From a virus: DNA of 32,872 nt. Shown here piece by piece: positions 31,626 through 32,872 of the stretch. The stretch covers positions 1 to 32,872 of the IMG/VR virus record IMGVR_UViG_3300048589_000243; one strand, 5' to 3'. The first letter of the stretch is position 1; every line of letters starts with the position of its first letter. The position numbers and the translations under genes are program-made. The notes under the pieces are model-generated. The model worked only from the letters and a program-made list of their open reading frames with translations. It made no database searches and was not told the origin of the DNA.

Positions 31626-31973
31626 ATGACCAGCACCGCAGGAATCGCGAGACTTGGCAAGCTACGGCCAGACAAGGCACCGCAGGCTAGGAGCGGCATG
31701 GCGCGGCGCGGCACGACTCGGCACGGCATCGCAGGCAAGGCCCGGCGCGGCTCGGCTGGGCGCGGCACCGCAGGCAAGGCCCGGCGAGGCTCGGCTGGGC
31801 GCGGCACCGCAGGCAAGGCCCGGCGCGGCTCGGCTGGGACTGGCTCGGCATCGCAGGCAAGGCCTGGCCCGGCGCGGCACGGCGCGGCGCGGCATAGCAA
31901 AAACCGGTTGGCGGGCCGGGGTATAAAATCCGCCGCATTCTCCCAGACAAAACAAAACACCAACCAAATATAA
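31626..31973 (+). CDS. Gly/Arg/Ala repeat ORF over the GGCNN array; doubtful
   Basis: A 115 aa ORF begins at an ATG that follows the leader CTCACCAATACCAAACC, as real genes here do. Almost the whole frame is the pentamer array, giving 13-residue repeats GKARRGSAGRGTA. The predicted protein is extremely basic. Because the pentamer pattern leaves most frames open on both strands, the long frame alone is weak evidence. Either a real gene start was overrun by the repeat or a repeat protein is made. Confidence 0.3.
   Translation: MTSTAGIARLGKLRPDKAPQARSGMARRGTTRHGIAGKARRGSAGRGTAGKARRGSAGRGTAGKARRGSAGTGSASQARPGPARHGAARHSKNRLAGRGIKSAAFSQTKQNTNQI
31632..31899 (+). repeat. degenerate GGCNN pentamer array, copy 1
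   Basis: Successive pentamers GGCNN, with NN varying, are grouped in blocks of 7 to 9 that each end in GGCAC or GGCAT plus the tetramer CGCA. Block starts are seen at 31685, 31734, 31773, 31812 and 31856. Two adjacent blocks (31734-31772 and 31773-31811) are 39 bp and almost identical; the others differ in NN order and number. The left edge is degraded but still in register, and the last block ends GGCAT AGCA. Confidence 0.9.
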
Positions 31974-32628: not shown

Positions 32629-32872
32629 ATGCTAAACGCCAGTCAAGCCGATGATTTGCCAGCCTTCGCGGGCTTGGCATGGCGAGGCTCGGCAAGGCCC
32701 GGCACCGCAGGCACGGCTTGGCGCGGCGTGGCCTGGCATGGCTGGGCCCGGCAAGGCTCGGCATCGCAGGCGAGGCTCGGCTTGGCCCGGCCCGGCGAGG
32801 CGAGGCGAGGCATCGCAGGCGTGGCTTGGCCACGCGAGGCAAGGTCCGGCATCGCAGGCGAGGCTCGGCTTG
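32629..32872 (+). CDS. partial ORF over the second GGCNN array; doubtful
   Basis: An open frame starts MLNASQADDLPAFAGLAWRG at 32629 behind a CTCACCAACCGCAAGCCA leader, then runs through the pentamer array and off the window. The first 15 codons are not repeat-derived, which hints at a real gene start that the array has entered. The rest reads as Gly/Arg/Ala/Trp repeats. The opposite strand is open too, so coding status is unresolved. Confidence 0.25.
   Translation, partial: MLNASQADDLPAFAGLAWRGSARPGTAGTAWRGVAWHGWARQGSASQARLGLARPGEARRGIAGVAWPREARSGIAGEARL
32671..32872 (+). repeat. degenerate GGCNN pentamer array, copy 2, cut by window end
   Basis: The array has the same structure as the one at 31632 but different content. 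Blocks of 7, 11, 9 and 7 pentamers (starting 32671, 32710, 32769 and 32818) each end in GGCAC or GGCAT plus CGCA. A fifth block begins at 32857 and is cut by the window end. NN is highly variable, yet the block end GGCAYCGCA is invariant. Confidence 0.9.

Follow-up and report, generated by a model that had tools for sequence, protein, structure and literature searches.

A probable VIPR locus with block-punctuated GGCNN arrays in an uncultivated tailed phage

The window analysed here is the whole 32,872-base stretch of an IMG/VR virus record (IMGVR_UViG_3300048589_000243), and both this provenance and the presence of a phage terminase point to a phage origin. Close to its end, the plus strand carries a first pentamer array (31641-31899), a 3' tail (31896-31935), an unannotated gene for a 210-amino-acid RAMP-family protein (P0001, 31976-32608), and a second array (32671-32872), inside which the record stops. 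The first-pass annotation had placed the repeat at 31632-31899. It missed the second array, which begins at 32671, and the tail and the gene extend the unit further.

Array 1 consists of six blocks of GGCNN pentamers with 8, 9, 7, 7, 8 and 8 units, preceded by a CGCA at 31637-31640. Block 1 (31641-31680), in which several GGC triplets have decayed, is followed by CGCA at 31681-31684, block 2 (31685-31729) by CGCA at 31730-31733, block 3 (31734-31768) by CGCA at 31769-31772, block 4 (31773-31807) by CGCA at 31808-31811, and block 5 (31812-31851) by CGCA at 31852-31855. Block 6 (31856-31895) closes with GGCAT and AGCA (31896-31899) and gives way to the 3' tail. In array 2, CGCA separates blocks of 7, 11, 9 and 7 units (32671-32705, 32710-32764, 32769-32813 and 32818-32852), and a fifth block is cut by the contig end; the tail of this array falls outside the record. 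The earlier description of GGCNN pentamers in blocks with a fixed end holds, except for the AGCA closure of array 1 and for the degenerate GGC triplets, a few of which read GGA, GAC or GCT. The sequence GGCAYCGCAGGC occurs nine times in the window, always on the plus strand, where shuffled sequences lead one to expect 0.03 occurrences. As had already been noticed, the 39-bp stretches 31734-31772 and 31773-31811 are nearly identical, with a single base difference, so whole-block duplication also happens. Both arrays are preceded by a CACCAA..ATG leader (31626-31640 and 32629-32670) that resembles the leaders of neighbouring phage genes.

A strict search pattern, five GGCNN units followed by GGCAYCGCAGGC, matched 37 viral contig stretches; the 84,980 bacterial and archaeal genomes gave no match. 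Among the matches listed for a looser pattern of nine GGCNN units, 113 of the 120 bacterial and archaeal loci had at most four distinct NN pairs and are simple repeats, and the viral loci had diverse NN. Diverse GGCNN arrays were also seen in 6 of these 120 listed bacterial and archaeal loci, all of them MAG contigs (L059, L068, L070, L089, L137 and L144). The grammar of the repeat was derived from 321 distinct perfect GGY blocks. In these, interior NN pairs reach an entropy of 3.88 bits out of a possible 4. The pair that closes a block is usually AT, AC or AA and differs from the interior by 0.79 bits, and Y is C at 96% of positions. Block length has its mode at 8-9 units and shows no preference modulo 3 (counts of 113, 104 and 104). 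The last NN and the NGCA punctuation are thus constrained, and the interior NN is nearly random. It had been argued beforehand that invariant GGC triplets and block ends combined with a free NN reflect constraint rather than slippage, and that the same punctuation with different NN should be sought at unrelated loci. The retention of GGC beside almost random interior NN bears out the argument, and the search returned just this combination in the 37 viral stretches and 321 blocks. With respect to codons, NN composition is best matched by positions 1-2 (r 0.54), with no match to positions 2-3 or 3-1 in the sense direction, which is indirectly in keeping with guides that pair with coding DNA and skip the wobble base.

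The protein encoded between the two arrays can be assigned by several routes. A profile built from 54 relatives retrieves PDB entry 36pp, the 'SUSP1 Vipr protein', with E=1.7e-36; as a single sequence, the window protein matches SUSP1 Vipr weakly (E 0.45). SUSP1 Vipr shares phrog_4652 with the window protein and with each of the 54 proteins in the alignment. The AlphaFold model (pLDDT 88.7, pTM 0.82) finds its best structural matches in Csm3/Cas7 chains from type III CRISPR complexes (Foldseek E 4e-5; VIA Z 11.3). A G-loop is present around residues 184-194 (GAQVGIGEGRP), and G184, G188, G190, R193 and P194 are conserved in the alignment of the 54 relatives. Profile, PHROG, fold and conserved residues therefore agree on a RAMP homolog with an RRM-like core and a G-loop, as expected for Vipr. 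The association between gene and repeat is not peculiar to the window. An iterated HMM search found a Vipr ORF in 108 of 144 IMG/VR loci with degenerate GGCNN arrays, and when all ORFs of these 144 loci were compared, one family was prominent, with the main Vipr cluster covering 84 loci. Members of this cluster lie at a median of 56 nt from the array, on the array's strand in 84 of 86 cases. Another cluster of array-adjacent proteins was set aside, because the member that was checked is an out-of-frame shadow of vipr.

VIPR (Viral Interference Programmable Repeat) was named in a 2026 preprint (PMC13142463), and the repeat can thus no longer be considered to lack a named phage counterpart, as the first-pass annotation had it. 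There, Vipr is counted among the RAMP proteins and described as ancestral, and vrRNAs are RNAs that alternate GGY with NN and carry a 3' tail; their NN pairs recognise double-stranded DNA and leave out one base in between. The preprint also names competing phages and satellites as the targets, distinguishes seven VIPR types, one of them with 'staggered arrays with overlapping vrRNAs', gives 9-16 tandem repeats per vrRNA for the SUSP1 and P. fulva clades, and proposes that VIPR predates CRISPR. In the window, GGY alternates with variable NN beside vipr and on its strand. With 7-11 units, the blocks reach the low end of the preprint's range or fall short of it, and a single guide may span more than one block.

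The 3' tail of array 1, read directly, forms an H-type pseudoknot. Its stem pairs CCGG at 31904-31907 with CCGG at 31916-31919, and its loop, TGGCGG at 31909-31914, pairs with CCGCCG at 31930-31935, with U-G as the first pair; the terminus of the array as a whole reads AGCAAAAACCGG-TTGGCGGG-CCGGGGTATAAAATCCGCCG. In related arrays, 12 of 13 distinct loop sequences pair with the segment just downstream through compensatory changes (GGCGG/CCGCC, GGAGCG/CGCTCC, GGGAG/CTCCC, GTGAG/CTCAC, GCGAT/ATCGC, ACTGG/CCAGT and GCCGGT/ACCGGC), and the observed pairing was reached by one of 5000 permutations. An alignment of 11 tails, from which the window's own tail was left out because its loop is one base shorter, has 97% paired cells and both-side changes at all five pseudoknot pairs. 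The predicted nested fold of the window tail is not significant, so it is the covariation that carries the claim of a structured 3' tail for array 1. For the array body there is no consistent signal of structure: average folding in arrays exceeds that of dinucleotide shuffles but stays below that of controls in which the GGC frame is kept and the NN bases are permuted, and over the window's first 120 bases it is weaker than in shuffled sequence. Of the explanations initially offered for the repeat, RNA structure thus stands for the tail but not for the array body, there is no sign of a mobile repeat, and a protein-binding array came nearest, though most likely in the form of a guide RNA on a RAMP protein. 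Rfam gave one sub-threshold match near the window locus, taken as chance, and none in eight related loci. In one array, L163, the GGCNN units are broken by repeated hairpin-like stretches (GCGGCTAAAAACCGC), for which an Rfam search returned no family.

Protein, repeat grammar, genomic setting and tail together give good support to the classification of the locus as VIPR. We consider it very probable (roughly 0.93) that the window repeat is the vrRNA array of a VIPR locus in an uncultivated tailed phage, a guide RNA that would be bound by Vipr and serve to silence rival phages or satellites. By analogy with the system of the preprint, from which expression is also extrapolated, both arrays would be transcribed in the direction of vipr to give guide RNA. 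Cas7-like Vipr subunits would line up on this RNA, one per 5-nt GGC-NN unit, with GGC as the grip for the protein and the NN pairs left exposed. Together, these pairs would recognise double-stranded DNA, passing over one base from each pair to the next as in the SUSP1 experiments, and the complex would attach to genes of the rival phages or satellites and silence them. The pseudoknot at the 3' end of the array would serve as the guide tail. We propose that each guide block is delimited by NGCA, because in many related arrays this element both precedes the opening pentamer and follows the closing one, and an array would therefore hold several guides.

The alternative that the arrays of the window phage bind Vipr as a decoy or scaffold RNA, and are not DNA-targeting guides, appears improbable. 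It would accommodate the several decayed GGC triplets in one block and the outcome of the target searches. Searches of IMG/VR for natural targets of the window guides C2, C3 and B1 and of one Brocalys guide gave no convincing match, the sole match (L284) being at chance level and not wobble-aligned, and guide C2 had no match with up to three mismatches in 42 related records. First tests of the skip rule on mutual targets among array loci were null, and a later one gave a weak excess at skip 1 (eight pairs), with matches that do not extend and in mixed codon phase. These outcomes also weigh against the VIPR guide reading as a whole, as do the small block sizes relative to the preprint's range, the weak single-sequence match to SUSP1 Vipr and the lack of an accessory gene in the record. 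The decoy alternative is opposed, however, by the resemblance of NN to codon positions 1-2, by the DNA binding that SUSP1 vrRNAs guide according to the preprint (PMC13142463), and by the swapping of guide blocks between close relatives. One such relative is L038, whose Vipr is 97% identical to that of the window and whose leader and tail are similar; one block is nearly identical and the remaining guide blocks are different. The CACCAA..ATG leader of the window arrays is also kept there.

The same comparison argues against a functionless GGCNN repeat with a history of slippage expansion followed by neutral decay, since L038 retains the flanks and not the guide blocks. Slippage would be in keeping with the two 39-bp blocks, which document block duplication, and with the simple GGCNN repeats (1-4 distinct NN) that are common in bacterial genomes among the matches listed. 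Yet it leaves the retention of GGC next to almost random NN, the recurrence of the punctuation in unrelated phages, the same-strand association with one gene family and the covarying tail without explanation, and we regard it as very unlikely. Translation of the arrays into low-complexity Gly/Ala/Arg peptides (ORFs at 31626-31973 and from 32629) is to be discounted to a similar degree. Both arrays do lie in open frames, with an ATG behind a leader that resembles those of the neighbouring genes, but a 5-base period with few TA pairs keeps frames open on both strands anyway, and ORFs covering arrays are about equally frequent on the same and the opposite strand (59 and 52). Moreover, the block lengths are even modulo 3 and therefore do not keep a reading frame, and the matching frame of L038 stops at the array end, whereas that of the window continues. 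TRAP binds triplets 2-3 nt apart, and an array of binding sites for a ring protein of the TRAP kind, with triplets spaced by two bases, would have a similar 5-nt period, but this is hardly credible when a sequence search, positive for the B. subtilis control, finds TrpBP-family proteins in 0 of 50 array-bearing records, the window's included, when the neighbour of the array is a RAMP protein, and when NN differs between near-identical systems, as suits a guide and not a fixed binding site.

Within the VIPR reading, the closest experimental reference is Escherichia phage SUSP1, which shares with the window a homologous Vipr, GGY/NN repeat RNA on either side of vipr and in its orientation, a structured pseudoknot tail and a phage-borne location. 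SUSP1 has four separate vrRNAs, mostly with GGT and each with its own tail, whereas in the window CGCA divides GGC units into several blocks, and one tail is seen for each array. It is conceivable, if rather doubtful, that the window represents a VIPR variant in which one multi-guide transcript carries NGCA-bounded guides and a single pseudoknot tail, comparable to a CRISPR-array precursor but without CRISPR repeats. In such a variant the 4-nt NGCA, which breaks the 5-nt phase, could be a minimal signal for processing or counting. The 'staggered arrays with overlapping vrRNAs' of the preprint may already describe this punctuated multi-guide layout. The backbones of Class 1 CRISPR-Cas complexes (Csm3/Cas7) share the RAMP fold with Vipr (Z about 11), and the analogy would extend to a protein arranged along a guide RNA at regular spacing. 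In contrast to CRISPR-Cas, the window locus has no CRISPR repeats and spacers, with 5-nt GGC/NN units instead of contiguous spacers, and no cas genes were recognised among the window proteins scanned. A CRISPR array proper was rejected, as the conserved part is a 3-nt GGC every 5 nt plus the 4-nt punctuation, and near-identical repeats with unique contiguous spacers are absent.

SUSP1 and the relatives of the window also differ in the accessory gene beside vipr, which is phrog_5926 in the former and phrog_15946 in the latter. A phrog_15946 member was identified in 40 of the 42 records examined (clade relatives, other array-bearing contigs and three named phages), most commonly in the order vipr-array-gene, and in L038 it occupies 1-474 on the minus strand. 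It has no Pfam match above the cut-off. It is likely to be the vap of this Vipr clade, and we treat it as a candidate. The gene is absent from the window record, which stops inside array 2, before the place where it would be expected. In cyanophage Cy-LDV1, g34 (BK059895.1, annotated as hypothetical) encodes a Vipr with 62.7% identity, beside two adjoining GGCNN arrays and a phrog_15946 neighbour. That locus differs from the window in having GGCA instead of CGCA punctuation, and a CCGS pseudoknot tail was not seen in it by eye.

The window thus adds a VIPR clade from uncultivated phages, related to the Viprs of mycobacteriophages and Gordonia phages, and characterised by guides strung together in blocks, a tail that covaries and differing guides in near-identical systems. 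Its block-by-block layout may reveal how one transcript accommodates several guides, and the locus offers a concrete handle on how VIPR guides are gained and sized, and on possible forerunners of CRISPR arrays. Vipr homologs, annotated as hypothetical, occur in 27 mycobacteriophage records. In Mycobacterium phage Brocalys (L281, 2040-3507), a GGCNN array with GGCA punctuation lies upstream and a phrog_15946 gene downstream. Gordonia phages have Vipr homologs as well, and the array of Gordonia phage ODay (L282, 2492-3757) contains both GGC and GGT units, in line with the GGY rule.
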